A DNA stretch of 64,000 nt from Phycisphaerae bacterium (GTDB lineage: Bacteria; Planctomycetota; Phycisphaerae; UBA1845), in assembly GCA_029260075.1 (NCBI GenBank), contig JAJDDY010000075.1, positions 1 to 64,000 of the forward strand. The letters are read 5' to 3'. Of the stretch, positions 24,885 to 64,000 are shown in pieces (position 1 is the first letter of the stretch; each line of letters starts with the position of its first letter). Both the position numbers and the translations under genes were made by a program. Below the pieces are notes generated by a model, which was not told the DNA's origin, made no database searches, and saw only the letters and a program-made list of their open reading frames with translations.

Positions 24885-24963
24885 ACGATGAAGAAACGGG
24901 GCTACCCGATCGAACGCGATATGCCAGCTATGTGACACTTCGTGATTCACGAACGATCAAACC

Positions 24964-45452: not shown

Positions 45453-47242
45453 CGCACCATGTTCCAAGACAAAAGCGTATCGCTAGCAATATCAGTCGTC
45501 GCCCGCTTACCAATCATCTCAGCAAGAACGCTCGGCGCCGCACCAGTACCAGGCCTCTTCAATGTCAGCATCGAAGCGTCAATCGTCGCACCCGCAGGAA
45601 TATTCGTCGCAGCGACCACGCTCTTCCGCGCAATCTCCCGAACTTCCTGTTCAATCGCCTGCAGTCCATAGCTTCCATCCCCCATCGCACGCTCAGCAAG
45701 ACGAATCTGCTCAACGTACTCAGAAAGCTCCGAAGGAATCAAAGACATCGCATGATCCGGACCCACGCCGTCTTGACTTCCGCCGCAGCGACTGCCAGAC
45801 CCGCGACCAAGAGTAAAGTGCTTCTCGATAACACAAGCACCCGCCCCAACCGCATTAGCACCACCCTGCACCCAGGTCGTGTGATCACTAAGTCCGATCG
45901 GCACCCCAAGCGCCCGCCGCATCGTCGCAATCGCTCCAAGATTAAGCGAAGCAATCGGCGCAGGATAACGACTCACACAGTGAAGAAAAATCGTACGATC
46001 AACAGCCCCATGCTTCGCAAGATACCGCCGCGCAGCCCCAATCTCCCCTTCAGTAGAAGCACCCGTTGAGAGTATAAGAGGCAGACCCGTCTCAATCGCC
46101 GCATCAAGCAGCAAGACATTCACCAGATCCGTGGACGCCAACTTGATCGCAACCACACCGATCGCAACAAGTCGCTGCACATCCCCCGGACCAAATGGCG
46201 TCGCCAAAAACATGATCCCGCGCTGAGCACACCGCGCACGAATCTGAGAAAACGCCGCGTCATCAAGTTCAAGATTCGTTAGAAGCTCGCGCTGAGTCGC
46301 CGCACCCCCAGCCTTTTGATACTCAGCACAAATAGCCTCAGGCGTCGTCAATTCCGACGCACGAAACATCTGAAACTTAACAGCATCCGCCCCAGCATCC
46401 GCCGCAACATCAACCATCCGAAGCGCCGAAGAAACCTCGCCGTTATGATTGACCCCAGCCTCAGCAATCACCAAAGTCCGCTGACCAGCACCCACCGCAC
46501 GCTCCCCGATCATCACCACGTCGTTCGCTTTGCCAGCATCCCGCGACCGAAAAATCCCCTCAGCAACCGCAAGATCAATGGGCCCATCAATGTCCACCGT
46601 ATCCTCGGGCCCCTGAATAATCGCCCGACGATCAACTCCCAAAAACGCCTGATGATCGTCCGGCGTCTCCAGCGCAGCAAACAGCGCATCGCGCGTAACC
46701 ACCGCGACAGCGCCGTCATGATAAAAAAGCGGCGCAAGATCCTGCCGCCGATAGATACTGTTCGTTCGAAACTGCACCATCTGATCGCCCTCAAGACGAT
46801 GAATCCAATCCGGATGCTGCTTCGTCACCGGCGCAACACTCCGCACCGAGTCCGCCCCAGAATCTTCCAGATGTGCAATCGCGCGATCAATCAACCCATC
46901 CGCGCGTACAGGAATGTTACCGTACAAGATCGCAACAGCGTCAACCGTACCGCCATGCGCCTCTTCCCAACCCAAAACGGCGTGACGAACCGCATCGTCT
47001 ACGGTCGCGGTATCGGTCGCCAACTCAGCAGGCCGATCAACCACCTCAACCCCAAACTCCACCGCCAACGCCTGGGCATCCCCGCTATCGCTCGAAAAAA
47101 CCCGACCCAACAATCGTTCGCTCGCAAGGGCATGTTCAAACGCATAAGCAATCACCGGTTGACCGCAAAGATCGCGCATACACTTACCGGGCAACCCCTT
47201 GCTACCCGCCCGAGCCAATATGACGCCAAGAACCTTCATCAT
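45449..47242 (-). CDS. NeuA-NeuB fusion: CMP-nonulosonate cytidylyltransferase and synthase
   Basis: One 597-residue frame holds two enzymes. Residues about 1-235 are a CMP-sugar synthetase: ILARAGSKGLPGKCM is the CTP-binding signature and SSDSGDAQALA and YGNIPVRADG are further marks. Residues about 255-520 are a PEP-dependent sialic-acid synthase (VIAEAGVNHNGEV, AVKFQMF, ILSTGAST, GLSDHTTW), and about 530-597 form the SAF antifreeze-like domain (NIPAGATIDASMLTLKRPG). NeuA and NeuB are usually separate genes. With NeuC this gives a full route to a CMP-activated nine-carbon acid. Start is taken as ATG 47242, second in a GTG-ATG-ATG run. Whether the product is Neu5Ac, legionaminic acid or another cannot be told. 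Confidence 0.92.
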   Translation of the reverse strand: MMKVLGVILARAGSKGLPGKCMRDLCGQPVIAYAFEHALASERLLGRVFSSDSGDAQALAVEFGVEVVDRPAELATDTATVDDAVRHAVLGWEEAHGGTVDAVAILYGNIPVRADGLIDRAIAHLEDSGADSVRSVAPVTKQHPDWIHRLEGDQMVQFRTNSIYRRQDLAPLFYHDGAVAVVTRDALFAALETPDDHQAFLGVDRRAIIQGPEDTVDIDGPIDLAVAEGIFRSRDAGKANDVVMIGERAVGAGQRTLVIAEAGVNHNGEVSSALRMVDVAADAGADAVKFQMFRASELTTPEAICAEYQKAGGAATQRELLTNLELDDAAFSQIRARCAQRGIMFLATPFGPGDVQRLVAIGVVAIKLASTDLVNVLLLDAAIETGLPLILSTGASTEGEIGAARRYLAKHGAVDRTIFLHCVSRYPAPIASLNLGAIATMRRALGVPIGLSDHTTWVQGGANAVGAGACVIEKHFTLGRGSGSRCGGSQDGVGPDHAMSLIPSELSEYVEQIRLAERAMGDGSYGLQAIEQEVREIARKSVVAATNIPAGATIDASMLTLKRPGTGAAPSVLAEMIGKRATTDIASDTLLSWNMVR

Positions 47243-47367
47243 CACCTGTCTTTATCGGTCGCAAATCAAGACCACCCAAGTGTGTAGAATAGACGCAAAA
47301 ACGCAATAGGAAGGAAAAAACGTGGATCTAACAGGCGGTTTGCCCGCAAGAATGGCAGAACCCAGCC

Positions 47368-49038
47368 CTAGCTCGAAAGAGCTTCAACCAGCGAAGGCGC
47401 AAGAACCCCCTTGAGTCGATCAAGCGCCCGACGCTCAATCTGACGAATACGCTCCTTGGTCACCCCAAACCGCTGACCAAGCTGCTCAAGCGTCTGCGTC
47501 TCCTGCTCGCTACCAAGACCGAAGTGATGAATCACAATCTCACGCTCGCGAGCATCCAGCTGACCAACAGCCTCATCGATCATCTCGCGAACAACCTCGC
47601 GATCAGAAGTGCTTGGCTCGGCAACCCGATCGTCCGCCTGCGTCTCAAGAGCAATATCCTGACCCGTAACATACCGCTGATTCCGATACCGCTGCTCAGG
47701 AATCGACCGAGCGTAATTCTTCATCACAGCCCAGGTCGCATAAGTGCTAAATTTATTCCCCAACGCGTAGTCAAATTTCTCCGCAGCACGCATCAGCGAA
47801 ATATTACCGTCGCTAATCACCTCAAAGAAATCAGCAGACCAACCAACATGCTTCTTGGCAATACTAACCACAAGTCGCAGATTCGCCTTAACGATCCGCT
47901 GTCGAATCACCTCAACCTGACCCATCAAATGAGAAATCCGATCAAACTCGTCCGCAGCAATCTCAGTCGCATCAACAGAACGAATCTCACCAGACGCCTT
48001 GAACTTCAAATAGTTATAACGACGAAAGAGGTCCTGCTCCTGCTCACGAGAAAGAAGAGGCGTCTCATACAAAGATCGAAAGTACGCAGGCAATCCGCTC
48101 GGAGCCTTCGCGAGCTTGGCGCCAGCGTCAGCCGCTGGCTCGTCCACCTCAAGAATCAACGCATCCGCATTCGGTGCATCAAAAAGCTCATTGTGAACCC
48201 AGTCGACAGCAGGCGTAGACCACTTGCAAACCTGCACAGTCCGAAGCGTCGCTTCTATGCTAGATACGCTGCCACCAAACGATTCCGCAATCGACGAAAC
48301 CGATTCGCCGCTGTCGTGGCAGTTCCAAATCGCCTCGTGACGATCGTTCAGAAAAACACCGTCCCGCTCAAGAAAGAGCGCGTCGTCTACGTTCGCCTGA
48401 TCGTGTCGTCGCAGCGTGTACCGTACCGTCTCAATAGCCCGCCCAGTCTCCTCCGCAATCAGCGTCGCAGCCGTGTGCAGTTTCATCGGACGATCGCAAA
48501 CCAGAACCCGCGCGCGAGAGACGATAGCGTCTCGTTCCGTCGCACTGAGTTGAGTAAACGATGCAGCCTTATCCACGATTTGCTTATTCTGCAAAATGAA
48601 GCGGTCGATCGTCGTACGCATGAAAGCCAGACGATTCACCCCGTCTTCATAAACCAACCGAAGTCCCATCAATCCCTTATTGCGCCATCGACGAACCGTC
48701 TTGGTCGAAACCTTCAGCTCGCCAGCAACCTCTTCATGGGACAAACAAGGAACCCCGATCTCACCGACAGCGACCGCCGACTTCCGCGTCACAGACTCAG
48801 CCATCGAAATCAAATCGCTGACCAGCGCCTCCCCAGGAATTGCGTCCTTCCCAGGCCGACCGCGCCGTCCGTATCCCGTAATGTGAAAACAAACGAAATC
48901 GAACGGATAAGCCTTCTCAGCTTCGATAAGACCAAGCAGTCGCTCGATGCCCTGCACCTGCGACCCGCGCAAACGGCGCGGAGACAGCACAAGCTGACTC
49001 GCGAGTTCCGCCATATCACTATTGAAGAACTTGGCCAT
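47368..49038 (-). CDS. Sigma-70 factor with HTH-rich N-terminal extension
   Basis: The C-terminal part is a sigma-70: region 1.2 at about 315-350 (PLLSREQEQDLFRRYN), region 2 at 383-450 (NLRLVVSIAKKHVG, DGNISLMRAAEKFDY, KFSTYATWAVMKNYARSI) and region 4 at 495-545 (REREIVIHHFGLGS, TLEQLGQRFGVTKERIRQIE). Region 3 is very short, since little lies between 450 and 495. The first ~300 residues are unusual: a MerR/excisionase-like HTH at 98-148 (LSHEEVAGELKVSTKTVRRW), a second HTH-like stretch at 186-212 (TLIAEETGRAIETVRYTLRR) and a third at 246-268. It is probably a lineage-specific alternative sigma with its own DNA-binding input. ATG 49038 is the start. Confidence 0.88.
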   Translation of the reverse strand: MAKFFNSDMAELASQLVLSPRRLRGSQVQGIERLLGLIEAEKAYPFDFVCFHITGYGRRGRPGKDAIPGEALVSDLISMAESVTRKSAVAVGEIGVPCLSHEEVAGELKVSTKTVRRWRNKGLMGLRLVYEDGVNRLAFMRTTIDRFILQNKQIVDKAASFTQLSATERDAIVSRARVLVCDRPMKLHTAATLIAEETGRAIETVRYTLRRHDQANVDDALFLERDGVFLNDRHEAIWNCHDSGESVSSIAESFGGSVSSIEATLRTVQVCKWSTPAVDWVHNELFDAPNADALILEVDEPAADAGAKLAKAPSGLPAYFRSLYETPLLSREQEQDLFRRYNYLKFKASGEIRSVDATEIAADEFDRISHLMGQVEVIRQRIVKANLRLVVSIAKKHVGWSADFFEVISDGNISLMRAAEKFDYALGNKFSTYATWAVMKNYARSIPEQRYRNQRYVTGQDIALETQADDRVAEPSTSDREVVREMIDEAVGQLDAREREIVIHHFGLGSEQETQTLEQLGQRFGVTKERIRQIERRALDRLKGVLAPSLVEALSS

Positions 49039-49132
49039 TGATCTATTAAGCTTCCGAATTAACCGATCACCGGGTTAGAGCCAGCAATCGCACTTTTACG
49101 CATGACACCAGTCAAAAAACCAGTGCGTTTCT

Positions 49133-49162
49133 TGTGTGGCACCGGCATCTTGCCGGTGATCC
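49133..49162 (+). repeat. Dispersed palindrome family A, copy 5
   Basis: TGTGTGGCACCGGCATCTTG followed by CCGGTGATCC. It is 32 bases from copy 6 in the same orientation, separated by a CCGGCTCGGAGCCGG palindrome. Confidence 0.88.
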
Positions 49163-49194
49163 GTACAGCCCCGGCTCGGAGCCGGTCCATTTCT

Positions 49195-49225
49195 TGTGTG
49201 GCACCGGTTTCTAACCGGTGCATCC
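49195..49225 (+). repeat. Dispersed palindrome family A, copy 6
   Basis: TGTGTGGCACCGGTTTCTAA followed by CCGGTGCATCC. It differs from copy 5 by matched changes in stem and loop. Confidence 0.88.
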
Positions 49226-49463
49226 GACGGAGTGAGTACCGGGCAACCAAATATCGGCCCCCGAAACAATCTCACAGGCAGCTGGTACATTCTCGGGCGC
49301 ACCCGCGAAAACCACTACCTATTATCGCCGTCCCATATTCTCGGGTCAACCGAAACTAACGAATAACCCCTTTTCCGGCCCCAGACTCCCACAACAAGCC
49401 CCAATATAGGCAAAAATGAAGTGACAAACGAACCGAGGCGTTTGGACTCTTAGGTCGAACCCC

Positions 49464-51320
49464 CTACCGGTCTTCCAACCGACGAATCCGATCAGCAAAA
49501 GGCTTACTAAACGCCTCGCCCTCACGACCCTTGATCGCATTGCGATACCCCGCCAAAGCATCAGCCACATACTCACCCAAACCAAACTGAACAAGCATCT
49601 CATTCGCCGCTGCCGCATGAGCGACCAAAGTCCAATGACGACCCGTCGTCCGATGAGCACGCTCAAGGATCGAAGCAGCATCAGTCACCGCCAAAACCCC
49701 AGCCTCCCGAGCCTCACTCGCTTTCTCCGACACAGCCTCAACATCAACCTCAGCAAGCTCAATCGCCCCGACAACAGCCCCCAAAACCCGGGCCGTACGA
49801 ATCGATTCCTTGTATCGCGAAAGATAAACCCCCGCCTTCGCCAGCTGAGCATCCGCCACCTGGGCATTATTAAACCCAGCAATCCACTGATCATCCTTGC
49901 GCGCCGTCAGCGCCGAGTTACCCTGCCCTTCCGCCGCCACAGACGAAAGCTTAGAACCAGCATCGCTAGCCCAACGACCAGCCACACTCGCCGCCTGCGT
50001 CGACGCCGAAATTGACTTATCAAGCATCGAAAGCGCCGAATCCTCAAAAGCGACAGCTTCCGACTCAATCTGATTCAGCTCATCATAAGCTTCGTTCGCA
50101 ATCGGCGTCGTCTCATCAATCGTCTTTCGCGCCGCAGCTTCCATCTCCTGATAAGACGCCTTCTTCCCCTCAAGCATCGTAAGATCATCACGAAGACCCT
50201 GCTTCGCATTCTTCTCACGCTGAACCTTAGAAGCAAGAATCGCACGCTTCTGTTGAGCATGCGTCAGACCAAGCGTCATCACGACCTTATCCGGCGAACC
50301 ATCCTGAATATACCGACCACGTATGTAATCACCCGTATAGTCAATCTCAGCATCCGGATACCCGCCAAACTCAATAATATGAGCCTCACGAACAGCAATC
50401 CCGTAAGCATCAGCAAGCGCCATCAGCTTATTCGTAAACTCCGTAGCCCCAGCAGGATCCGTAAAATCGACCCCAGCATTCTGCATCCGCTGCATCTCGT
50501 TAAACGCAACCCCAGCCTTCATACTCGCATCCTTAAGACGCCCCTCGAAGGCTTCGATCTCAGAATCAACCCCGTCCAATGTCTTTTCATACTGCCAAAG
50601 GCGAGCATTTCCTTCGTCGATCCCGCCCTGCACCATAGCAATCCGCTCGTCGATCTTGCTATCAACGGCCAGCGTCCGACTCGATGTCATCGCAACAACT
50701 TCGCGCGTCAACCCCAAAAGCTCCTGACGAACCCGCTCCGCCCCAGCCCGACTCTTAGCAGCACGAAGTTGCTCACTCAGCGCCTTGTGATAGTAAGCAA
50801 CCGCCAAAAGACGATGAGCCTCAGCATAGTCCCGACCCGTGGCATCACCCGACGAAACCGCGATCGCAGCATTCACTTCCGATAGCGCGTCATCCAAAAG
50901 CTCGGCGTTCCGACTTACAAGATCATCGCGAGTCTGCACACCCTCGCGTGCCTGCCCAACAATATCCCCATAACTCGCACTCGCCGCCCGAGGATTCGCA
51001 CCCCAGTTCGTTGGCTTAAACGCACCCCAAAGCTGCCCGTGAATCGCTTCGTAAGTCTCAGACCCATCGTCCTCAATCGCAGACGAATCCTCAATATCAA
51101 CGTCAAAGTCGATGTCACGAAGTTGATCGCGAACCAAAGCACCGTAAGCAAGCTGAGCGTTGTAGTCATGAAGTATCCGCCGAGCACGCTCGACATGAAC
51201 ACCAGCCTCACTCAAAACCTTCGCAGAGCTCGGAGCAAGCGACGGAGCAACAAACCAAATCGCGCCAGCCACAAAAAAACCGCCGACCATCGCAACAACG
51301 ACAACAATATTAGACTTCAC
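49464..51320 (-). CDS. Membrane-anchored coiled-coil protein of unknown function
   Basis: GTG 51320 with AGGAG seven bases upstream gives 618 residues. A single membrane helix lies at about residues 5-24 (VVVVAMVGGFFVAGAIWFV), and the rest is mostly helical and charged, with long coiled-coil stretches (e.g. GLRDDLTMLEGKKASYQEME, about 320-400) and a Ser/Ala-rich segment at about 440-470. The final region (about 560-618) with EYVADALAGYRNAIKGREGE looks like one tetratricopeptide-type helical pair. No family was recognised. It is probably periplasmic and may organise the envelope. The frame's first start at 51350 has no ribosome site. Confidence 0.75.
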   Translation of the reverse strand: MKSNIVVVVAMVGGFFVAGAIWFVAPSLAPSSAKVLSEAGVHVERARRILHDYNAQLAYGALVRDQLRDIDFDVDIEDSSAIEDDGSETYEAIHGQLWGAFKPTNWGANPRAASASYGDIVGQAREGVQTRDDLVSRNAELLDDALSEVNAAIAVSSGDATGRDYAEAHRLLAVAYYHKALSEQLRAAKSRAGAERVRQELLGLTREVVAMTSSRTLAVDSKIDERIAMVQGGIDEGNARLWQYEKTLDGVDSEIEAFEGRLKDASMKAGVAFNEMQRMQNAGVDFTDPAGATEFTNKLMALADAYGIAVREAHIIEFGGYPDAEIDYTGDYIRGRYIQDGSPDKVVMTLGLTHAQQKRAILASKVQREKNAKQGLRDDLTMLEGKKASYQEMEAAARKTIDETTPIANEAYDELNQIESEAVAFEDSALSMLDKSISASTQAASVAGRWASDAGSKLSSVAAEGQGNSALTARKDDQWIAGFNNAQVADAQLAKAGVYLSRYKESIRTARVLGAVVGAIELAEVDVEAVSEKASEAREAGVLAVTDAASILERAHRTTGRHWTLVAHAAAANEMLVQFGLGEYVADALAGYRNAIKGREGEAFSKPFADRIRRLEDR

Positions 51321-51384
51321 ACAAAACTCCTGTCTGAGTTCGAAGACCACCGCCAGGCGCCTGTTGAAAAACGAAGTTTTTCAG

Positions 51385-51774: not shown

Positions 51775-52095
51775 ATCCCCCATTCCTGTAGTTCTCCCCA
51801 CCCCCATCAGATGGGGATGAAAGCCCGTTGCTCCCGGTTTCATAGAAGAGCAGCGACCGTAAGGGAGCTAGAAAACGGCAATCGCGTATGGCACTGCCGC
51901 AGTCCAGTCAGATGGCATGGCCCAAGCTCGTGTGGCAATGAAGAGCGGCTTCCGGCAGCAAGACCCATGTCGCGGAGAACACGCACGACCGCCAACCCCA
52001 AAACCAGTGCGACCGCATCCAAATACTTCGATTCCCGCCCCTAAAGCGCTGATCGCTTAAGAAATCCCCTTAACCGATCACCCGTCAAGTTATTA

Positions 52096-52422: not shown

Positions 52423-53109
52423 CTAAGTCCCCTCAAGGTTCCCAAAGAGCTGAATATGAAGGCGAGAGCAAAACCGAAATCCCCGGTCCTTACAAATCTC
52501 AACCAACCAACCAGCCCGCTCGTCGAGATCCTTCACCGTCACCCCTTCCGGCATCAACAGCACACGACCCGGATCAACCTCCCCGATCCGCGCCAACAAC
52601 TCGTCAATCTCATTCAAATCCGACGCCCGCTCAACGACGAATTTCAATTGATAATCGGCGAACTCCATCAACCGACGAATCGCATCAACATCGATCCGAT
52701 TCTCTTCGTGCGCCGCCGCAAACTTACCACCCTCACGCTCCCAGGGAGTCGAATTCGAGAGCTTCGGACTGATGCTAAAAAGATCGCACCAAAAATTCCC
52801 AAACACTGTCCCAGCCGTCTCAATCGTAACGTGGTACCCAGCCTCCTTAAGACCCCGCGTGAGCTCCCCGATGTCAGCGTCAATCATAGGCTCACCACCC
52901 GTCACGACCGCATACTTAGTCGGAAAGTCACCCACCCGAGAGAGGATCGCATCGACAGGCATCTTAATCCCAGTGGGTTCCCAGGATGTCTTCGGCGAGT
53001 CACACCAGACGCATCGCAAATTGCAGCCGCTTGTCCGAATAAACACGCTAGGCATACCGGCAAGTTGCCCCTCGCCCTGAATGCTATAGAAAATCTCGTT
53101 GATATTCAC
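52423..53109 (-). CDS. queE: 7-carboxy-7-deazaguanine synthase
   Basis: This radical-SAM enzyme makes the ring of CDG in queuosine/7-deazaguanine synthesis. The family start INEIFYSIQGEG is followed by SGCNLRCVWCDSP, whose CxxxCxxC binds the iron-sulfur cluster, and by VTGGEPMI. GTG 53109 (VNINEIFYS) gives 228 residues, a normal length. The frame opens at 53148, inside the neighbouring gene. Other queuosine genes are not nearby, so it is an isolated member of the pathway. It is 10 bases downstream of the lipoprotein gene and probably co-transcribed. Confidence 0.94.
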   Translation of the reverse strand: MNINEIFYSIQGEGQLAGMPSVFIRTSGCNLRCVWCDSPKTSWEPTGIKMPVDAILSRVGDFPTKYAVVTGGEPMIDADIGELTRGLKEAGYHVTIETAGTVFGNFWCDLFSISPKLSNSTPWEREGGKFAAAHEENRIDVDAIRRLMEFADYQLKFVVERASDLNEIDELLARIGEVDPGRVLLMPEGVTVKDLDERAGWLVEICKDRGFRFCSRLHIQLFGNLEGT

Positions 53110-53119
53110 AATACAAAGT

Positions 53120-53956
53120 CTAATCGCCAACAGGCCAACGCAAAACACCCGTCAGGTCGTCCACCGACAACAGTTCTCGAAACCAATCCGAGCGAAAACC
53201 CAAAGGAATAGCCTCCAATGGCTGGAGTTCATACTTGATCGTTCGAACAAATCCATCAACCTGCGAAGGCATGCAACGACAAAGAAAGGTAACGATCTCA
53301 CGAGATGGCTCACCACCAACATAAACCCAAGGCCCCATCGCAACAGGACCATCATCAAGGACCCGAGCAACAACGACCTCAGGCGCTTCGCGAACACTCC
53401 GCTCAATCGCAAACTTTCGCGAAAAAAGCGGTGAACCAAACTCAGCAATCGCACGATCCTCAATCCCACGAGATACATAAAGAACATGACCCGACTCCCC
53501 CGAATCAAGCGCCTCCCAGAACATCGGAAAACCGTCATGACCCATCACTACCCGAACGCCGCGACCAGAGACATCTTCGACGCCAGATTGATAGAACCAA
53601 ACATACAGAACCTGATCATAGCTTTGACCATCGATCGCGACCTTCGACGCCGCACAATAAACCGTACTCACCCCCGAATCGCAGCCACCCTCCCGCGCTG
53701 GCGTACAGATCAACGAGCTTGCCTCCGGTTTCTTCGAAACGGTCTCGTCAACGATCAGCGGAACAAGCAACTGCTCCAACCCGACCAGTCCGTGATCGCC
53801 GGGCTTATAGTAAGTCCCCCGCGCAAACTCCGTCGTCGTCCGCGAACGAACACGCAATGCGATCGCCGGGTCATACGACCGCGACCCGCTGCAACCGAAT
53901 TGCATCGCACAACAGCACAAGTACAAAACAACTCGCGGCAAATGTTCTCCTCTCAT
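53120..53956 (-). CDS. Putative lipoprotein of unknown function
   Basis: ATG 53956 starts a 278-residue protein with a hydrophobic, Cys-rich leader (LPRVVLYLCCCAMQFGCSGS) whose last Cys, residue 22, is the likely lipidation site. The mature part looks like a globular alpha/beta protein with VLYVWFYQSG, VRVVMGHDGFPMFWEAL and VVVARVLDDGPVAMGPWVYV. No family was recognised. It is followed after 10 bases by queE. The frame's first start at 54004 would put 16 extra residues before the leader. Confidence 0.7.
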   Translation of the reverse strand: MRGEHLPRVVLYLCCCAMQFGCSGSRSYDPAIALRVRSRTTTEFARGTYYKPGDHGLVGLEQLLVPLIVDETVSKKPEASSLICTPAREGGCDSGVSTVYCAASKVAIDGQSYDQVLYVWFYQSGVEDVSGRGVRVVMGHDGFPMFWEALDSGESGHVLYVSRGIEDRAIAEFGSPLFSRKFAIERSVREAPEVVVARVLDDGPVAMGPWVYVGGEPSREIVTFLCRCMPSQVDGFVRTIKYELQPLEAIPLGFRSDWFRELLSVDDLTGVLRWPVGD

Positions 53957-54755: not shown

Positions 54756-54851
54756 GAAGTTCCTACGCGCCCCAAACGGCGCGACTAGAGTGGAGTTCAA
54801 TCAAGCTCGCTCGCGCTTCGCGCCGTGCGGGCTTGGTTGTTAAGAAAGGAC

Positions 54852-55511
54852 TTACTCGACGAGTTCGCAAATCATTTCAATCGTAAGATCGCGAAGTTCT
54901 TCAACGATCATGTCTGCGGCGCCCAGTGCCTCCCGTGTTTGATAAAGACATACGCCAATCGACTTCGCACCCGCCCCCCGCGCAGCCTCAATTCCAACCG
55001 GCGCATCTTCAATCACAATACAACGAGAAGGAGCAAGCCCCAGTCGCTCGCAAGCAATCGAAAAAACCTGAGGATCCGGTTTCCCGCGAGTGACATCATC
55101 CCCGCTAACGATCGTCGTGAACGTTTTCTCTGCACCAAGCGCAGAAAGAATCAACCGAATATTCTCAAGCGGCCCCGAAGAACCAATCGCAAGCGTGCAT
55201 CCGCGTACTTTCAAACTCTCGACAAGCTCCGCAGCCCCTTCGACCAGAGGTGGATCATCGCGCACGAGGTCGCGGTAAAGTTGTTCCTTGCGAGCAGCGA
55301 GCTCTCGAAGTCTCTCTTTGGTCACGTCGCCAAAAAGTCGAGGAATAATATCGTCGTTGTGTCGTCCAAACGTGTCGGCGATCTGCTGGGCAGCAATCGC
55401 GACACCAGTCTCTTGGCTCAAGAGTTCCCAACTACGAAGATGCGGTTGCGCCGAATCGACAAGCACGCCGTCCATATCAAAGATCACACCGATGTCCGTA
55501 CGCTGCATCAC
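54852..55511 (-). CDS. HAD-superfamily phosphatase, beta-phosphoglucomutase-like
   Basis: This 219-residue protein has all HAD motifs: FDMDGVLVDS (nucleophile and acid Asp), IGSSGP (motif II Ser), RGKPDPQVF (motif III Lys) and VIEDAPVGIEAARGAG (motif IV). Its cap region (residues about 18-80) is the helical subclass IA type, which acts on phosphosugars as a phosphatase or mutase. GTG 55511 has GGAGGG nine bases upstream; the adjacent ATG at 55508 is equally possible. The substrate is unknown. It is the last minus-strand gene before the strand-composition change. Confidence 0.92.
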   Translation of the reverse strand: MMQRTDIGVIFDMDGVLVDSAQPHLRSWELLSQETGVAIAAQQIADTFGRHNDDIIPRLFGDVTKERLRELAARKEQLYRDLVRDDPPLVEGAAELVESLKVRGCTLAIGSSGPLENIRLILSALGAEKTFTTIVSGDDVTRGKPDPQVFSIACERLGLAPSRCIVIEDAPVGIEAARGAGAKSIGVCLYQTREALGAADMIVEELRDLTIEMICELVE

Positions 55512-55685
55512 CTACGACAGCCCTCCAGTCCATTCCCCACTTGAGGCGGGGATGATACCCGGCGAAACCGATTCGTACAGGGGCGACGTCCGATACTGAC
55601 GAATCGAGCGAATTCGGATATCATTGTGGCATCGTAATGGAAGTGAATCTGAACCAGACAGCCAAAGGGACCGACTAGTATCCTA

Positions 55686-57218
55686 ATGAGCGGTGCAACC
55701 ACAACACGACAAACCGATAACCGACATGGCCCGGTGAGCTTGCCATGGCGAGCTTGGCTTTTCGTGTTTACGTTTTTTCTGATCGTGTATTCGATGACGG
55801 CCAGCCGCGGCGTGCAGTGGCAGGACTCCGGCTTTCAAATGCTTCGGGTCGTAACGGGCGAACTTATCAACGTCCGAGGTCTTGCGCTAGCCCACCCGCT
55901 ACATCATTGGTTTTGTAGGGCGGCAGTTTGGATCGGTCTGTTCTCCCCGGCGTACGCCATCACGTTGGTCAGCTCGATCGCGGGCGCCCTTGCGGTCGCT
56001 AACACGTTTGGGTGCGTTTGGTCGCTCACAGGTCGTGGGCGTGCGGCGATTTATGCTGCCTGTTCGCTAGGCATTGCGAATACATTTTGGCAAATGGCGA
56101 CTATCACTGAGACGTATACATTGGTGGCTGCGCTTCTGTCGGCTGAGATATGGGCGCTCGTCTTGTTCTTGAAGCAACCGTCTCGGTCGCGATTGTGGCT
56201 CATCCTTGCAATCGGTGGACTCGGTGTTGCAAATCATAATCTTGGCGGACTGACGCTTCCTATCGTTGCGGTCGTTGGAATACTTGCAGTTCGGCACAAA
56301 CAGGTGACGGCGCGCGATTTCGGTATTGGTGTTGTCTTTTGGCTTTTGGGCAGCCTTTCTTACTCAGCCCTCGTAGTTAGTGAGGTGGGTCGAAGTGGGG
56401 ATTTCATTGGGACGTTATCCTCGGCTCTATTCGGGAATATATATCGCGACGACGTTTTGAATCTCTCTTTGTCTTCGTCGCGCATTTTGATCAACTCGGC
56501 ATTTGTGTTGCTTAACTTCCCGGGTTTACTCTTGCCGCTGGCGATCGTTGGAATCGTTCGCATTCGTCATGGCGATTATCGTGATAAGGTTCGCTGGGTC
56601 ATGCTGGCGGGGCTTGCCATTCACTTGTTCTTTGCGATTCGCTTCTCGGTTGTGGATCAGCATACGTTCTTTATTCCAACGTATGTCTTCTTAGCAGTTT
56701 TCGGAGGTATTGGATTCGACCGCCTCTTGAGTCTTGGCTCCGCGCGCGGAAGATGGGTGGGTTGGAGTGCTCTTGTTTTTCTATTACTCACGCCGTTGTT
56801 TTACGCAGCTGTCCCAGGAGTTGCGAGACGTATGAACGTGTTGAAAGACCACGCCAGAAATAAGCCTTACCGTGACGACTACACTTATATCTTTACCCCT
56901 TGGTCGGTTTCCGAACGGTCTGCGGAGCAGATAAGTGGTCGTGCGATCGCGCTTGCGGGTGAGCTTGGATTGATTGTCGTCGCTGACTCCATGGCAAAGC
57001 CGGCAGTCTTGTTCAAGCTGCATGAGTCGCCGGATCGCGATGTGGTCGTCGTTCGAGACTTGGACCCTGATTTACTAACCAAGTCGCTTGACGAGTCAAG
57101 AACGGTCGTCTTTGTGCCGTCAAGCATGGAAAACCCGCTGCCGCCCCTGGAGAAGGGTCATTGGCGCCGGGACGGCGATCTTTACATTTACACAGACGAT
57201 TCCCAAGGCAATGAGTAA
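55686..57218 (+). CDS. Polytopic membrane protein, DUF2723/glycosyltransferase-like
   Basis: The 510-residue protein has about ten hydrophobic helices. The first extracytoplasmic loop carries WQDSGFQMLRVVTGE and LALAHPLHHWF, matching the DSGE and HPP-type motifs of DUF2723 and related GT-C enzymes that use polyprenyl-linked sugars (here Glu follows later and HPL replaces HPP). The C-terminal ~150 residues are soluble. It overlaps the methyltransferase gene by 8 bases and starts the plus-strand run after the composition switch. A role in protein or glycan glycosylation is plausible from the family. Confidence 0.8.
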   Translation: MSGATTTRQTDNRHGPVSLPWRAWLFVFTFFLIVYSMTASRGVQWQDSGFQMLRVVTGELINVRGLALAHPLHHWFCRAAVWIGLFSPAYAITLVSSIAGALAVANTFGCVWSLTGRGRAAIYAACSLGIANTFWQMATITETYTLVAALLSAEIWALVLFLKQPSRSRLWLILAIGGLGVANHNLGGLTLPIVAVVGILAVRHKQVTARDFGIGVVFWLLGSLSYSALVVSEVGRSGDFIGTLSSALFGNIYRDDVLNLSLSSSRILINSAFVLLNFPGLLLPLAIVGIVRIRHGDYRDKVRWVMLAGLAIHLFFAIRFSVVDQHTFFIPTYVFLAVFGGIGFDRLLSLGSARGRWVGWSALVFLLLTPLFYAAVPGVARRMNVLKDHARNKPYRDDYTYIFTPWSVSERSAEQISGRAIALAGELGLIVVADSMAKPAVLFKLHESPDRDVVVVRDLDPDLLTKSLDESRTVVFVPSSMENPLPPLEKGHWRRDGDLYIYTDDSQGNE

Positions 57219-58026
57219 CAACGATTCATCAAAAAACTCACATGGCTCGCGCGTGCGTCGCTGGCACGGTCTTGCCAACGAGTGGTTGACCGGAGCGCTT
57301 GGCAGATTCCTTGAATATGGGTGTGGGCCTTGCGATCTTACGGCACGGGTTGCCGATAGATGCGATCGGTGTCACGGGGTTGACGTTGATGGAGAGAGAA
57401 TTGCTGACGCGCAAACGCGCCATCCCAATTTCAAACTAGCCGTCATCGGTTTCGACGGGAAGACAGCATACGAAGATAGTTACTTTGACACGGCTGCGAT
57501 TATTGAAGTTATTGAGCACGTTTCGGATGAACGCGCGACGCTCGCCGAATTAGCGCGCGTCTTGAAACCTGGCGGACGGTTGATTTTGACAACGCCGCAT
57601 CGGGGATTGTTCACGTTTTTTGATACAGGAAATTTCAAGTTCGTTTTCCCTCGCCTTCACAAGTTCGTGCATGTTTGGCTCCGCAGGAATCGCGAGTACT
57701 ATGATAAGAGATTTGCACAGCCGGATGAACGCGGATTGGTGGGCGACATCTCCGTCTCTGACGATCGCGAGCCTTGGCATCGCCACTACAAACCGCAGGA
57801 GATCATCGATCTGTGTCCGCCGGAATTGGTCTGCGAACGATTCGGTGTTTTTTTTCCTGGGATGCGAGGGATGATGCTCTTGCGAGTCTTAATCAACGTG
57901 TGCACGTTTGGCCGGGTAGGGCACTTGTTCTGGCCTTTCTCGTTTGTGGAGCGGCGACTCAGCCGCTTGGAGAGTCATTTTGGTGACCAGCTTATTATGT
58001 TGCTCCGCAAGGTGGGTCCGAGTTAG
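57211..58026 (+). CDS. SAM-dependent methyltransferase, class I
   Basis: ATG 57211 lies 8 bases inside the end of the upstream gene, giving 271 residues. The SAM-binding motif I is FLEYGCGPCDLTARVA and the post-motif block is AAIIEVIEHVSDERATL with LKPGGRLILTTPH following, typical of methyltransferase type 11/12. The C-terminus (about 220-271) is partly hydrophobic. Its position between a DUF2723-like protein and glycan genes suggests a glycan or lipid substrate, by inference. Confidence 0.9.
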   Translation: MSNNDSSKNSHGSRVRRWHGLANEWLTGALGRFLEYGCGPCDLTARVADRCDRCHGVDVDGERIADAQTRHPNFKLAVIGFDGKTAYEDSYFDTAAIIEVIEHVSDERATLAELARVLKPGGRLILTTPHRGLFTFFDTGNFKFVFPRLHKFVHVWLRRNREYYDKRFAQPDERGLVGDISVSDDREPWHRHYKPQEIIDLCPPELVCERFGVFFPGMRGMMLLRVLINVCTFGRVGHLFWPFSFVERRLSRLESHFGDQLIMLLRKVGPS

Positions 58027-58068
58027 GTATGGACTATTTTCGATAGCAAGGCGTGGCCGGAGTAAATC

Positions 58069-59181
58069 ATGTTGGCGACTCAGTTTCTCAATCAGATTTG
58101 TTTCTTTATCGCGCTCGGGATTATGGGCTGTGGTCAGACGACATCACCCTTACCGCCGGGTACCTCGGCAGGCGAACCCGATGTCTCTTTGTTTCGCATG
58201 CGATCGCTGAAGTCTCTCCCGAAGGTCCACTATTCTTGGCCTATCTCGAATAAAGCGCTTGAACTAAGCGATACGTCAGAACTCTATGAATACGCGAGAG
58301 TTACCCACGCGGTTACGCTCAGAGGCGAATCGTGTAATGAGTCGCATGTTCAAACGGCTGTCGCGATTTGTCATCGTCTCAACAGCCACGATCCAGCGAT
58401 CAAAGCTAGCGTTGGGCTCATGTACTCTCCTTGGCACCGAAAGTTTGGCAAGAGCCTTCCGCCAACGGACGAAGGTGAGAGCACGGACGCTGAGATACAG
58501 CAATTTGCAACGCGCATGGCAACAATCGGTCGATGGGTCGCCTCTGCAAATGAGAAATATAGTTCGAAGGTCGAGCTTACGGCAGTACTTCTTGACACTG
58601 AACGGTTTAGTGCGCGCGCCGGCGACCTCGAGTGGAATAAGGCGATCACGAAGAAATATGATCAGTTCTATGACGCGGCGCGGAAGGCATTTGGGTCTGC
58701 TAGAATCGAATGGTATGGTCGCGGTGTTCAGGAATCTGCCACCGAAAAGGGGTGGTCGCCGCATCCGTGGAACACATTCGAGAACAAGGGGTCTTCCTTT
58801 TCGTGCTCATTGTATCGGGTTCCCGAAATCGGCGTGATGCGTGAGACACTTCGGCGGACGCTTGCCCTCGCGCGACAACATCGCATTCAGACTGTTACGC
58901 CGTGGGTTGCACTGGGTGCCGGGTATCGACGGGCGCTGGACAGATTTCAAAAATGGGATACCGACTGGGACTATGACCTTATTTATTCTTGGATGATCGG
59001 AGCGGAACTGAACCGGAAGTGGTTTGGTGATCGTCCTGCGCGTTTCATGCCTGGAAATGTGGTTGAGGTTGTGGTGTTCTATCCTGGCCCGTTTGATCCC
59101 CGGACGCCTTCTTGGGACAAACATTTCATTGCTTATGTAAACGGCGCGACGGACGTCAAGTCGTTGGAAGGCGGTCCCTGA
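58069..59181 (+). CDS. Lipoprotein of unknown function, glycoside-hydrolase-like fold possible
   Basis: ATG 58069 has GGAG six bases upstream. The leader LNQICFFIALGIMGCGQ carries a lipobox with Cys 21. The mature 350 residues have alternating strand/helix stretches (VGLMYSPWHRKF, VELTAVLLDTERF, ARIEWYGRGVQ, IQTVTPWVALGAGYRR, YDLIYSWMIGAEL) as in a TIM barrel, with ERF and EWYG possible acidic active-site candidates. No specific family was recognised. It follows the methyltransferase by 42 bases, perhaps in the same operon. Confidence 0.7.
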   Translation: MLATQFLNQICFFIALGIMGCGQTTSPLPPGTSAGEPDVSLFRMRSLKSLPKVHYSWPISNKALELSDTSELYEYARVTHAVTLRGESCNESHVQTAVAICHRLNSHDPAIKASVGLMYSPWHRKFGKSLPPTDEGESTDAEIQQFATRMATIGRWVASANEKYSSKVELTAVLLDTERFSARAGDLEWNKAITKKYDQFYDAARKAFGSARIEWYGRGVQESATEKGWSPHPWNTFENKGSSFSCSLYRVPEIGVMRETLRRTLALARQHRIQTVTPWVALGAGYRRALDRFQKWDTDWDYDLIYSWMIGAELNRKWFGDRPARFMPGNVVEVVVFYPGPFDPRTPSWDKHFIAYVNGATDVKSLEGGP

Positions 59182-59189
59182 CGACTTCC

Positions 59190-60413
59190 TTACATCGCCG
59201 ATTCGATTTGACGATGAGTTGGCAGAACGGAATTGATCGCTTTGATAAACATCTTTTCTTGATACTCGGGCGTATAGAAATCATCGATGATTTTTCTGCA
59301 TGCGTCGGCCATTTCGATCTTGCAAGGTTTTGGGAAGAGCATCTTCTTCATCTTCGAGGCAAGCCCGGTCGCACTATGCGGAGCAAAATATCCTCCGGTA
59401 TGCGCCTCAATGACGGTTTCGACTTCGGGGCCATGCGACCACGTCGTGTTGTATGAGGTGAGGATGGGCGTGCCGTATACGAGACTGTGCATTGCGAGTA
59501 GGCCTACTGCGCCGGGGGCGACGCAGAGGTCGGAGGCGCAAAAAAGCTCGGCGATCACGCGCTCGTCGTAACAAGCGCCGAGCCAGACAATCTGATCCGC
59601 GACGCCGCGCTCCCGGGCGAGCTTGTCGAGATTTACATGCTCAGGGCCGTCTCCGATAAGGACGGCTACCACATCTATGTCTTGCTTGCGGAGTATTGAC
59701 ATTGCCTCGATCAAGAGGTGTATGTGTTTTCGTTTTTCGAGTCTTCCGGAATGTACAACGAGTCTTGTACGGTTATTCTCGATGCCATAATTGGAGCGGA
59801 CATCTTGAATTTTTTCATCGATTATTTCTTTTCTGAGTGCGACTTGTGCTTGATGGTCGAGACTATTTCTTACGACGAATAATTCATCGCGTCGAAATCC
59901 GTGGTTGGCAAAAAAGTCTCTTGCCCAGGTCCCGTATAGGAGTTGGGCTTTCGCCCGCTTGAGGTATCGCTTCCTGATCATCCATTTGAGTCCTGCCTCG
60001 GGAGCCTTGAGTCCTTGACCCCATTCGAGAATTGGGATTCCGCGATTGCTCAAGACTCGCCTTAAGAGCCAATTACTGACGGAACGAATTCCGAAGGTAA
60101 TAACGGCATCGAAGTTTTCCGTCTTGGCGATCGTGACCGCATCCGGTTGCCATTCGAGACCTCGCAAGATAGGGATCGTCACATGGCGAGAGGACAGCTT
60201 ATGCCACCTTAGGTCTTCGGTCGCATTGACGTCATCGATCGTTGCAACGGTCCCGCCGGTAGGTGTCAGTCGTGTCTCGCCTGCGTAGACCGTGAAATTC
60301 AGGTTGGGATTTGCGGTTAGCCGGCGAAATAGGGGCGCACGGTAATGCGGAATCGACCAGGAAAAGAGTGCGACCTTCGGTGGGGTTCTACGTTTGGCCT
60401 TGCTTGAGTTCAT
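59190..60413 (-). CDS. Glycosyltransferase, GT4-like
   Basis: The 407-residue enzyme has the GT-B fold. The C-terminal domain shows LVVHSGRLEKRKHIHLLIEA (the donor-binding start), AVLIGDGPEHV, IVWLGACYDERVIAELFCASDL and the acidic EVETVIEAHTGGYF block typical of GT4. It should add a sugar to a growing glycan. It is the last gene of a minus-strand run with the Wzy-like and Wzx-like genes (spacing 46 and 124 bases). Its stop lies 8 bases from the convergent lipoprotein stop. Confidence 0.9.
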   Translation of the reverse strand: MNSSKAKRRTPPKVALFSWSIPHYRAPLFRRLTANPNLNFTVYAGETRLTPTGGTVATIDDVNATEDLRWHKLSSRHVTIPILRGLEWQPDAVTIAKTENFDAVITFGIRSVSNWLLRRVLSNRGIPILEWGQGLKAPEAGLKWMIRKRYLKRAKAQLLYGTWARDFFANHGFRRDELFVVRNSLDHQAQVALRKEIIDEKIQDVRSNYGIENNRTRLVVHSGRLEKRKHIHLLIEAMSILRKQDIDVVAVLIGDGPEHVNLDKLARERGVADQIVWLGACYDERVIAELFCASDLCVAPGAVGLLAMHSLVYGTPILTSYNTTWSHGPEVETVIEAHTGGYFAPHSATGLASKMKKMLFPKPCKIEMADACRKIIDDFYTPEYQEKMFIKAINSVLPTHRQIESAM

Positions 60414-60459
60414 TGGCGTCTTTGGTCGAGCCTATTCAAATCCGTGTTGTCGCTTGGAG

Positions 60460-61803
60460 TCACGATTGCGTTGCGTAGCTAGCAGCCTGGTCTCGATCTT
60501 GTCTCACGCGATGTGTTCGAGCGATCTTTGCTACGGGAATCCTATGCGATACCTGAACAACGCAAGCATAGAGGAGACCGACGAAAAGGTATAAGAAGCG
60601 CGCACCATCCAGGTCCCAGTGTACCATCGTTTGCAGTCCGAACATGCAAACCATCGCGGTCGGCGCTAACACAATGAAGCGATCTTTCGGATCGCGAGCG
60701 GCACGCATGCCCCGCTGCACTTGCCGAACGATGATCCAGAAAAACATCAACAGCGCAGTCATTCCGACAAGCCCTGTTTCATAGAGCGCTTCGAGGATAA
60801 TGTTGTGAGGCCAGGCGGGTTCGTCCATTGCGAAGTAGTCGACGGCAAATGAACCTGAGCCGTGCCCCAGAATGGGACTCTTGGACGCTTGTACTAAGCA
60901 AAAAATGTAGTAGTCGGATCGTCCTTGAAAGGCTGGTCCGCCTTGTGAGAGTCTGTCCCAGCGCGTTGCTCCGGCACCGGGCATCGCCCCAAGGAGCATG
61001 AATCCTAGACCTGCTGCAACGGGTACTGCCAAGAACAACACAAACCCGCCTTTGAGTCTTGTTCCCTTGCCAGCAATGAACGGAAGTATCATCGCGATGA
61101 GGGGAATGGCTATGAGGGCTGATCTTGTTCCGGTTTTGAGGATGGCAAGAATTCCGATCGGGAGGATGAGAAACGCCGCGTAACGAAACCACCTTGACGC
61201 GCTTCCTTTGATGAGGAACCCTGAAAAGAGTGCAACAATCGATACGGCGGCGAGTACGGCTGGGATAATGGGACTTGATCCGAGGATGGTTCCTCGACCA
61301 TATCCGCGCCCGTAGAGGGTCTGTCCGAGGTAACTCTCTGGGAGCAGTAGGACGGCGAGAGAGGCGACCGCTCCGACGGCGATGACGCCAGTGATCGTTC
61401 GTTGGGCTTCTCGCTTGGAGCGAACCAGGAAGATCGGTAACAGCAGTAGCGGAATCCCGATACCTACAAAGCGATAGGCTTTTCGAAGTCCGTAGGTTGG
61501 CGCAGAAGTCCATGTTAGGCCAATGAACAGGATGATGCCAATCACGAGAAGGCAAGCGCACTGTTTCCAGGGAATCTGCACGGAGGCGCCCTGTCGCCGG
61601 TAGCGGACTAAGCTCCAGAGCGCCATCGCGCCTGCCAGTCCGCATGAAAGGACTGTTAGATCAACTCCGGCGAAGAAAGGGACATAGTACTCTGCGGCCC
61701 CTTTAATGAGGGGGACTCCGAGCAGCATCGGAAGGGCGAGCCACGGCGCGTAGATCAAGACAAGCAGCACGACGATGATTAGCAGGATGAAGAAAACTGT
61801 CAT
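60460..61803 (-). CDS. O-antigen ligase/polymerase-like membrane protein
   Basis: The 447-residue protein has about twelve membrane helices and matches the Wzy/WaaL ligase family: the periplasmic loop has ILGHGSGSF and PAWPHNIILEALYETGLVG, with the H-N-x-x-L-E pattern conserved in this family. It joins or transfers polysaccharide units at the periplasmic face. It lies between the Wzx-like and GT4 genes. Whether it is a polymerase or a ligase cannot be told from sequence. Confidence 0.88.
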   Translation of the reverse strand: MTVFFILLIIVVLLVLIYAPWLALPMLLGVPLIKGAAEYYVPFFAGVDLTVLSCGLAGAMALWSLVRYRRQGASVQIPWKQCACLLVIGIILFIGLTWTSAPTYGLRKAYRFVGIGIPLLLLPIFLVRSKREAQRTITGVIAVGAVASLAVLLLPESYLGQTLYGRGYGRGTILGSSPIIPAVLAAVSIVALFSGFLIKGSASRWFRYAAFLILPIGILAILKTGTRSALIAIPLIAMILPFIAGKGTRLKGGFVLFLAVPVAAGLGFMLLGAMPGAGATRWDRLSQGGPAFQGRSDYYIFCLVQASKSPILGHGSGSFAVDYFAMDEPAWPHNIILEALYETGLVGMTALLMFFWIIVRQVQRGMRAARDPKDRFIVLAPTAMVCMFGLQTMVHWDLDGARFLYLFVGLLYACVVQVSHRIPVAKIARTHRVRQDRDQAASYATQS

Positions 61804-61927
61804 GAGTAATTCCGCTCGTCGCCCGATTGATCGCCCCCCTAGTTACGGCGATCGGACTCCGTACTCTTATATCGAACCATCGGGGGGCGAATATCAAGAC
61901 GGTCTCTGCTGGATGGGTTCGCTCTGG

Positions 61928-63235
61928 TCAAGGATCGCCGGCGAGCGTTTCAGTGTCGGGAACGGTGGAAAGGCGCCTGTCTATGATGAAATTCTTCACA
62001 TAGAGGCCCGCCCACATCAGCGACATGACGAATGACCCGATGACCAGGCCCTGGGCGGCGCCCATCGCGCCTCTGGTTGGAACGAGCAAGAAAAGCGGGG
62101 TGAGGCGCGCGACGAAGTTGATGATCGAAACGACCGGAAGAACCGTCGGTGAAAGAAACTTCGAGGCGAAGGGTCTGCATAGGGTTCCAATGTTGAAAAT
62201 CGCGAAACCCAGCATGACGAAAGGCCAGAGTCCAACTGCTTCCCGTGCGACGTCTGGATAGAAGAATCTTACTAAGGTCGGTCCGATTAGAAGCCCGATC
62301 CCGAAAACCGCTAGCGCAGACGCAAAGACACCGAGGATATACCGAATATAGAAACGTCGGGTGAGCTGCTCGACGCTCATGACGCGACCTAACAAGCTCA
62401 AGATGAGATTGGCGAGAAGCGTTCCGGGGATCGAGACGAGCGCAGCCATCGAGGCGGCAGCGAAGTAGGTTGTGACCACAGCCTTTGTCTCTGGATCGCT
62501 TGGTGGCCACCAGTGTCCGAGGAAGATGCGATCGAGGTAGCCGGCAGAGAGGGTGATCGCGGCGGCGACGGAAAGTGCTGGCCAAACTTTCATCGCTTCG
62601 CGTGCAAACTTGGCGCTGAAGAGCGGTTTTCGCAGTAAGACATCTCGCTCAAGCCATAATACGATACACAGCGTAATAGTGGCAGCGAGGAAATGTGCTG
62701 TAGCAATTCCGGGAATGCCCATCGCGTAATAGAGCGGGATCGCCAGAAACAACAACGCCGATTGCACACCGTGGATGAGGGCCATGCGTGCGAAATCTCT
62801 GCGAACGCGGTAGGGTGCCAGTGAGGTTTCCACGACATTGGTAAGCATGAGATAAAGTGCAAGAATCGGAAGAAGGCGAGCGACGACGGGATCGTCTCCG
62901 AAAGCGCTGGCGATCATCTGCGAGCCGAACACATAAATCATCGCGATCGGGATCATGGCGGCGAGACTCAGTGCCATTGTTGTCCGAACGAGCAGGGCCT
63001 GGTCCTGTTCTTTTTGCCTGACGAGATCGCGGATGATGTAGCCGATAAGACCGTTGCTGGGAGCGAGACCGACCATGAGAATCGCACCAAGGGCTAGGAC
63101 GAATGATCCGAAGGTATCGACGCCGATGATCTTGGCGAGAATCGGGAAGAGAATAAGGCGCGGAACACCCATGCTGATGAACTGGTCCAGAACCGTCCAG
63201 CTGAAGTATCTTCCCATTCTGCGGATGCGAGACAT
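61928..63235 (-). CDS. Polysaccharide flippase, Wzx/MATE-like
   Basis: This 435-residue protein has 12-14 predicted membrane helices and the look of the polysaccharide biosynthesis (Wzx/RfbX) branch of the MOP superfamily, with LILFPILAKIIGVDTFGSFV at the N-terminus. It flips lipid-linked oligosaccharides to the outer face. It is the first gene of the minus-strand run; the 171-base gap to the plus-strand gene at 63407 should hold both promoters. Confidence 0.88.
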   Translation of the reverse strand: MSRIRRMGRYFSWTVLDQFISMGVPRLILFPILAKIIGVDTFGSFVLALGAILMVGLAPSNGLIGYIIRDLVRQKEQDQALLVRTTMALSLAAMIPIAMIYVFGSQMIASAFGDDPVVARLLPILALYLMLTNVVETSLAPYRVRRDFARMALIHGVQSALLFLAIPLYYAMGIPGIATAHFLAATITLCIVLWLERDVLLRKPLFSAKFAREAMKVWPALSVAAAITLSAGYLDRIFLGHWWPPSDPETKAVVTTYFAAASMAALVSIPGTLLANLILSLLGRVMSVEQLTRRFYIRYILGVFASALAVFGIGLLIGPTLVRFFYPDVAREAVGLWPFVMLGFAIFNIGTLCRPFASKFLSPTVLPVVSIINFVARLTPLFLLVPTRGAMGAAQGLVIGSFVMSLMWAGLYVKNFIIDRRLSTVPDTETLAGDP

Positions 63236-63406
63236 CGTGACGTTGTTGCCTATGATCTAAGGGGTCGTGAGCGGAACCAGAGCGGACAAACTTCTGGACC
63301 CGTGCCCGAATTTATACGGTAGTATCGGCTCGGCGGTTCGGTCGAGACGACGGGAAGGTCTCGAATTGCGCATTCGCTGGTCTCTGAGCGTGGATAAATT
63401 GATCGA

Positions 63407-64000
63407 ATGAACGCCGCAACACGTGCTTACCATGTTCTATCGCAATTGGGCCCTGAGTTTGCCTGGCGACGGGCTGCGATGGCGTTCGATCGCACTTTTG
63501 GCATCACGCGGCGGCGGTTTGCACCGAAACCTTGGGCGGCGATCCGACTCGCTGATATTCTGCGCGACGGGGTACCTGCCGAGGTACGGGACTATGTCGC
63601 CCACAAACGAGCGAACCCTCCGCAGTTTCTCTTTCCGCTAGGGAACCTATCGAAGATCCATGGCGAGACTACGGAGTCAGTCGCGATGGGTGAACCGACA
63701 CTCGCTGAAAGGGTGGCGCTACTCGAGCGGAATCGGTGCGTTTGGTTTTTCCACAAGCCGTCACCCAAACCGATCGACTGGTACGTGAATCCATTCGATG
63801 GGACGCGGGCGGATGCTTCGCGCACCTGGTGCGACATTGGAGACTTTGAACCGGCGGCGGGCGATACGCGGATGATGTGGGAGCCGTCACGGGCTGCCTG
63901 GGCGGTCGATCTCGCTCGCGCGAAAGCGCGCGGACTTGAAGGGGCGACTGGCGAACTTTACTGGCGATGGGTCGAGTCTTGGATGAATGCTTGTCCCCCT
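63407..64000 (+). CDS. Heparinase II/III family protein, N-terminal part (runs off window)
   Basis: The frame from ATG 63407 is open to the window end (198 residues, no stop). It contains YVNPFDGTRADASRTWCDIG then DTRMMWEPSRAAWAVDLARA and LYWRWVESWMNACPP, the conserved N-terminal (alpha/alpha toroid) pattern of heparinase II/III and alginate-lyase-like proteins found in exopolysaccharide clusters. The catalytic part lies beyond the window. Such proteins trim or modify the cluster's own glycan or degrade uronic-acid polymers. It is divergent from the Wzx-like gene. Confidence 0.88.
   Translation, partial: MNAATRAYHVLSQLGPEFAWRRAAMAFDRTFGITRRRFAPKPWAAIRLADILRDGVPAEVRDYVAHKRANPPQFLFPLGNLSKIHGETTESVAMGEPTLAERVALLERNRCVWFFHKPSPKPIDWYVNPFDGTRADASRTWCDIGDFEPAAGDTRMMWEPSRAAWAVDLARAKARGLEGATGELYWRWVESWMNACPP

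Follow-up and report, generated by a model that had tools for sequence, protein, structure and literature searches.

Strand-composition reversal near 55.6 kb and a probable two-species join in a contig of a Phycisphaerae draft genome

At the skew minimum of an oriC-type replication origin, the plus strand of the chromosome changes from C-rich to G-rich. Breaks in skew are also established as a means of revealing mis-assembly, as described for SkewIT (PMC7717575). A published survey of strongly biased bacteria gives the Planctomycetes a low mean strand-bias score, 0.023, on a scale that is not comparable with the skews used here (PMC4613354).

The window analysed here is a stretch of 64 kb, bases 1-64,000 of contig C73 (73,118 bases). 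The contig belongs to a Phycisphaerae draft bin, G000, of 93 contigs and 4.92 Mb, rated 96.9% complete and 3.45% contaminated; C4, C16, C45, C64, C74 and C78 are other contigs of this bin. Scans of the 64-kb window for tRNA genes and Rfam families found none. The reading that we favour, with a probability of about 60%, is that the contig right of about 27.65 kb comes from a second species and that a composition flip near 55.6 kb delimits a polysaccharide locus that was either moved or acquired.

The composition flip near 55.6 kb is real. In 1-kb blocks, the GC skew is between -0.05 and -0.32 over 28-55 kb, at or below -0.15 in 21 of the 27 blocks, and between +0.05 and +0.11 in all 8 blocks from 56 kb. 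The AT skew is positive in 27/27 of the left blocks and mixed on the right. Within 27.7-64 kb, position 55,725 gives the best single composition split (log-likelihood gain 236). Among 200 base shuffles the maximum gain was 9.4 and among 200 shuffles of 1-kb blocks it was 148, i.e., no block shuffle reached the real gain. From the composition split and the gene adjacency in a related assembly, see below, the flip is assigned to 55,512-55,725, which runs from the intergenic space between a HAD-family hydrolase and a TMEM260-like gene (55,512-55,685) up to the split. A sharp reversal near 55.5 kb, as proposed in a first-pass annotation of this DNA, is thereby borne out.

The reversal is also seen gene by gene at third codon positions. 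On the plus strand, the third-position GC skew lies between -0.20 and -0.72 in all 16 genes from 28.4 to 55.5 kb (5 on the plus strand, 11 on the minus strand) and between +0.01 and +0.40 in all 14 genes from 55.7 to 73.1 kb (5 plus, 9 minus), while the AT skew is positive in 16/16 of the former and negative in 12/14 of the latter. The upstream plus strand had been described as C/A-rich whichever strand codes, and this holds for every gene. The downstream part had been called G/T-rich on both coding strands; here the positive GC skew stands, but it is weak and the AT skew follows in only those 12 genes. The start of the C/A-rich stretch had been placed at 31.4 kb, about 3.6 kb too far to the right, and on its left the strongly skewed block ends just as sharply, at ~27.65-27.85 kb, an edge which the annotation did not contain.

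The third-position skew was split into a part that follows the chromosome strand and a part that follows the coding direction. The strand part is GC -0.51 and AT +0.53 in the middle of the contig (16 genes) and GC +0.17 and AT -0.18 on the right (14 genes), which is weak compared with the middle, so that the amplitude differs threefold between the two arms. The coding part is nearly equal, middle versus right (GC -0.07 vs -0.08; AT -0.15 vs -0.13). Codon preference is seen in this small coding part, -0.07 to -0.15, and to that extent agrees with a skew due to transcription or codon choice and not to the chromosome strand. However, within each segment the GC sign is the same for plus- and minus-strand genes (16/16 and 14/14), and this two-strand comparison refutes such a cause of the skew, which we find hardly credible.

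Composition divides the contig near the left edge of the skewed block. The left segment (1-27,650) has bin-like tetranucleotides, interspersed repeats and a weak skew; its composition alone is bin-like, and it has no close relative. The middle segment (27,650-55,560) carries core genes with extreme strand asymmetry and is nearest to another genome, G070, as judged from third-position skew, colinearity with contig C13 of that genome and second copies on C16. Tetranucleotide correlation was calculated against a 1.36-Mb sample of the bin, which included C78 and a masked contig, whose 2,587 N were not counted. It reaches 0.974 for positions 1-24,000, compared with 0.850 in the middle and 0.893 on the right, and 20-kb pieces of C16 give a minimum of 0.962 and a mean of 0.970. 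Repeat clusters of the bin-wide type, counted with C78 and the masked contig left out, number 6 in the left 27.8 kb and 1 in the remaining 45.3 kb of C73. As a control, 59 overlapping 45.3-kb stretches of C16 hold 3 to 26 such clusters (median 12).

Some details of the repeats can be added. In all, 377 repeat clusters were counted in 1.36 Mb of the bin. Intergenic repeats that the left 28 kb has in common with the main part of the bin are found at 1-64 (palindromic) and 24,834-24,888 of the window, among others, and at C78:6092-6173. The sole bin-type cluster in the right 45 kb of C73 is at 51,807-51,837.

Many genes of the middle segment occur a second time in the bin. Second copies were searched for using tblastn against C16 and other contigs, about one quarter of the bin in all, for 15 middle genes, the gene at 54,291 being left out. 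For 13 of the 15, a copy exists on C16 with 31-74% amino acid identity: pyrF, rsgA, three large pilin-like or surface genes, the HDOD gene, the NeuC-like gene, a NeuB fusion, a sigma-like gene, the gene of a 628-aa protein, a queE-like gene, its neighbour and the HAD gene. The cysC-like gene has no second copy on C16 or in the quarter of the bin compared, and a 315-aa pilin-like gene has a bin match of 68 residues only, outside C16. As a control, the 16 left-hand proteins were compared with the same quarter of the bin, and for none of them did a copy reach 50% identity across most of the protein. A second copy of ugd, a gene of the right-hand part, is present on C45 (70%).

The order of genes is also kept. 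The genes at 43,291-51,350, all on the minus strand, encode an HDOD protein, a NeuC-like epimerase, a CTP-transferase/NeuB fusion, a 556-aa sigma-70-like protein and a 628-aa unknown protein (Pfam; tblastn), and the same order is found on C16 at 47-55 kb with 32-74% amino acid identity. Further to the right, on the same strand, a queE-like radical SAM protein (52,423-53,148) has QueE models as its top NCBIfam matches, all below cut-offs, and a C16 copy at 61%. The HAD-family hydrolase (54,852-55,511, minus strand; Pfam HAD_2, 1.4e-33), 57% identical to its C16 copy, is the last gene of the strongly skewed block. Among the matches listed, the sigma-like gene has a match in 60/60 genomes and only the bin has two above 50%; four relatives at 55-61% were found in one scan of named genomes.

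Two of these proteins have an unusual architecture. At 45,449-47,245, a CTP-dependent sugar transferase domain is fused to a NeuB/SAF domain, beside the NeuC-like epimerase; the homologues on C16 and in a further genome, G069, align in two pieces and may be split there. The 556-aa sigma-70-like protein (47,368-49,038) has a long N-terminal half, and a long match to it is present in 53/60 genomes, the bin included, among the matches listed.

G070 belongs to another genus of the same family (Phycisphaerae) relative to the bin. It is the nearest genome, or the closest among those compared, for both the middle (57-91%) and the right (80-92%) of the contig. Amino acid identity to G070 is 91% for HDOD, 81% for the NeuB fusion, 78% for the NeuC-like protein, 80% for HAD (on G070:C375), 57-61% for three fast-changing genes, 82% for a flippase-like gene and 92% for Ugd and WecB, which lie at 68.8-71.3 kb; ugd also matched G070:C140 (92%). 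G070:C13 is colinear with 34.2-47.2 kb (58-91% amino acid identity). For the right-hand genes the comparison covers a small part of G070, and 4 of the 14 were matched in the pieces compared, one over 81 residues only. Since the middle and the right are both nearest to G070 and have nearly equal coding parts of the skew, they are taken as parts of one genome. Right of the break there is no return to bin-like sequence up to the contig end at 73.1 kb.

The break between the two kinds of sequence is located inside ileS (isoleucine--tRNA ligase; 24,964-28,236, minus strand; TIGR00392, 690.9 bits, cut-off 621.4), a mosaic with its breakpoint near 27.65 kb. The first ~185 residues are G070-like and the remainder is about equally distant from all relatives compared. 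In 60-residue windows, identity to G070 is 86, 100 and 93% over residues 1-180 and 62-85% from there to residue 900, where other genera match as well. At the protein level the contrast is modest in residues 61-180, which are well conserved (83-95%) in all relatives compared. In 75-nt steps, nucleotide identity to G070 is 83-95% at 27,675-28,199, with 46% in the last 37 bases, and 57-83% below 27,675. The same comparison with an ileS fragment on C78, used as a control, shows no step near 27,675. The composition split on the left edge of the strongly skewed block, at 27,845, is within ileS too. In G069, which belongs to the genus of G070, cysC follows ileS as it does in C73, i.e., the break is inside ileS and not between genes.

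The fragment on C78 (6357-7805) is a further 5' part of ileS, with 76% amino acid identity to C73 over residues 12-494, ended by the contig end. It is close to neither side of the C73 ileS, although C78 is otherwise bin-like, which is a point against the chimera reading, since a real recombination inside ileS could also be involved. A continuation of C78 into the left part of C73 was considered and dropped, as the C78 ileS differs from both sides of the C73 gene. No exact overlap between the end of C78 and C73 was found, as a branch in the assembly graph would have left if it had caused the break.

On either side of ~27.65 kb there are two compositions and two patterns of nearest relatives, and genes are present in duplicate within the bin (the C16 copies, ugd and the partial ileS on C78). 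From this we infer that C73 is most likely a chimera, with the bin organism on the left and a second species right of ~27.65 kb. Alternatively, recombination inside ileS could have brought 45 kb or more of a G070-like donor into the bin organism; the contig would then be true and the duplicates would be xenologues. The window contains no N run or other non-ACGT base, the breakpoint adjoins a part of ileS with high conservation, a site that would also suit homologous recombination, and the C78 gene fits neither side, all of which agree with a transfer. However, assembly errors driven by homology fall at similar places. A transfer would also have to bring 13 redundant genes along, bin-like sequence does not resume before 73.1 kb, Ugd and WecB there are 92% identical to G070, and contamination is part of the bin's own rating. 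We consider a transfer quite unlikely.

The strong strand asymmetry seems to be a trait of the lineage that comprises the second species and G070. For the bin, 174 five-kb blocks (two of them the right end of C73 itself and one the masked contig with its N) give a mean |GC skew| of 0.033 and a maximum of 0.105, and the five blocks between 30 and 55 kb of the window lie at 0.145-0.255. In G070, the mean |GC skew| is 0.124 over 7 readable contigs of 9, which are 3 to 13 kb long and hence noisier, and the colinear G070:C13 has a GC skew of -0.124. It is because these contigs are strongly skewed that the asymmetry is ascribed to the lineage. A more specific picture, in which this lineage has a third-position A:T ratio of ~3:1 on the plus strand (coding part removed), a replication direction that changes away from dnaA and unequal arms, is unlikely.

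To the right of the flip lies a 6.3-kb polysaccharide segment (55,563-61,891) with genes for a TMEM260-like protein, a methyltransferase, an unknown protein, a glycosyltransferase and a Wzy-like protein (Pfam). It is followed by the start of a polysaccharide cluster (61,892-64,000, minus strand), where the flippase-like gene (61,928-63,235; 82% amino acid identity to G070:C375) has no Pfam match and a weak MATE-family match only, its name being a guess. The cluster runs past the window to the contig end at 73,118 with Ugd, WecB and others. The right side as a whole carries a glycosyltransferase, a Wzy-like protein, UDP-glucose dehydrogenase and WecB as polysaccharide genes. The names flippase-like, polysaccharide-deacetylase-like and carbamoyltransferase-like are tentative ones suggested by the right-side sequences.

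Two related assemblies contain the same joint. In G070:C375, a row of three genes, namely X, the small one at 54,291 and HAD, is followed at once by the homologue of 61,892-63,334, with unchanged orientation. This contig passes from the homologue of 55,562 (query position 2190) to that of 61,892 (query position 2192), and 55,563-61,891 is thus missing from the G070 joint. In G069:C73, HAD adjoins the homologue of 55,743-55,994, the TMEM260-like gene (51% over 84 aa), and the two are oriented to each other as they are here. A fixed chromosomal joint therefore has variable polysaccharide content, with the segment missing in G070 and the TMEM260-like gene present in G069. The assembly error that the first-pass annotation had allowed for does have a counterpart, as a chimeric or recombinant join exists at ~27.65 kb, but not at the place proposed, since the joint at 55.6 kb is kept in the relatives. 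An assembly error joining two organisms at 55.6 kb itself could account for the sharp change in strand composition and for the middle-right tetranucleotide correlation of 0.852. However, it is contradicted by G069 and G070, separate assemblies that both join HAD to a right-side gene; moreover, both sides are nearest or closest to G070 and have nearly equal coding skew parts. We regard such an error as very improbable, and the joint looks genuine.

The sign of the flip is that of a replication origin, which had been suggested from the same pattern. If 55.6 kb were the replichore boundary of the second species, with forks leaving both ways, the change from C-rich to G-rich along the plus strand would have the right sign, the pooled third-position GC and AT skews both change sign, and in G070 the GC sign also changes, weakly, at this joint. 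However, over the 28.4-73.1 kb compared, the strand parts of -0.51 and +0.17 are not mirror images. Between 53.9 and 55.7 kb, no DnaA box was found with up to one mismatch, and totals over the whole window are at chance level; none of the four intergenic spaces checked is an AT-rich gap (GC 0.50-0.59). A search for such boxes and AT-rich elements around this region had been proposed, and the earlier remark that no dnaA gene or DnaA-box cluster is visible agrees with our search. In the bin, C4 and C64 carry dnaA matches and C74 a weak third one, and 11 short dnaA loci compared have no match on C73. The gene dnaA is not always located at the origin, which weakens its absence as a criterion. The single-contig genome G008 has its best HAD match (51%) 598 kb away from dnaA.

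The relatives also speak on this question. The C13 genes of G070 have GC skews of -0.26 to -0.50 and AT skews of +0.13 to +0.52, while the GC skews of X and HAD in this genome are near zero (-0.05 and +0.03). Its four comparable right-hand genes have GC skews of only +0.02 to +0.18 and positive AT skews, +0.06 to +0.39. At the joint, GC in G070 goes from -0.047 to +0.065 and AT does not change sign. In G069, GC skew is positive on either side (2.2 kb and 0.56 kb), without a sign change in the 2.7 kb compared. On C16, in 10-kb blocks, the skew passes from -0.02 to +0.05 at the HAD gene, a change within the usual scatter of the bin. An origin at 55.6 kb is thus not supported and rather unlikely, and the flip is not a proven origin.

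Instead, the other suggestion, a rearrangement at 55.6 kb, remains the best reading, and we infer a rearrangement or acquisition there and not a change of replication direction. We suggest that C73 right of ~27.65 kb would derive from a second species nearest to G070, joined to the bin organism in the conserved 5' part of ileS. This species would have an unusually strong strand asymmetry of the replication type, which would make the plus strand C/A-rich whichever strand codes. At 55.6 kb, a core block ending with queE, X and HAD would then meet a polysaccharide locus of weaker and opposite bias. This locus could have been acquired, or else moved or inverted, with a strand bias that is still out of equilibrium with its surroundings. 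Two observations run counter to this reading. The opposite GC bias is fairly uniform over the 14 right-hand genes, and replication in the other direction would also produce it. Furthermore, HAD and the flippase-like gene have the same order and orientation in G070, with no inversion visible between them, and the weak GC sign change is present there.

A strong skew break can flag a contaminated contig. About 45 kb of C73 is probably foreign to the bin, and gene counts, duplicates and origin calls made from this contig would be wrong. The analysis also points to a Phycisphaerae lineage, consisting of G070 and the second species, whose strand asymmetry greatly exceeds what the rest of the bin shows.

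Compared with known systems, the case resembles oriC in the sign of the change at 55.6 kb, but it lacks DnaA boxes, dnaA and equal arms, and neither G069 nor C16 has a clear flip. It resembles the strongly strand-biased bacteria in that the base usage of genes differs with the replicated strand; set beside the 0.023 that the survey gives for Planctomycetes, the middle segment stands out from the rest of the bin by a much stronger asymmetry, although the two scales are not comparable (PMC4613354). As in the work described for SkewIT, a break in strand composition reveals a join or a segment that has been rearranged. However, SkewIT deals with complete chromosomes, while here the sequence is a draft contig, and the mis-join is at 27.65 kb and not at the skew break at 55.6 kb (PMC7717575).
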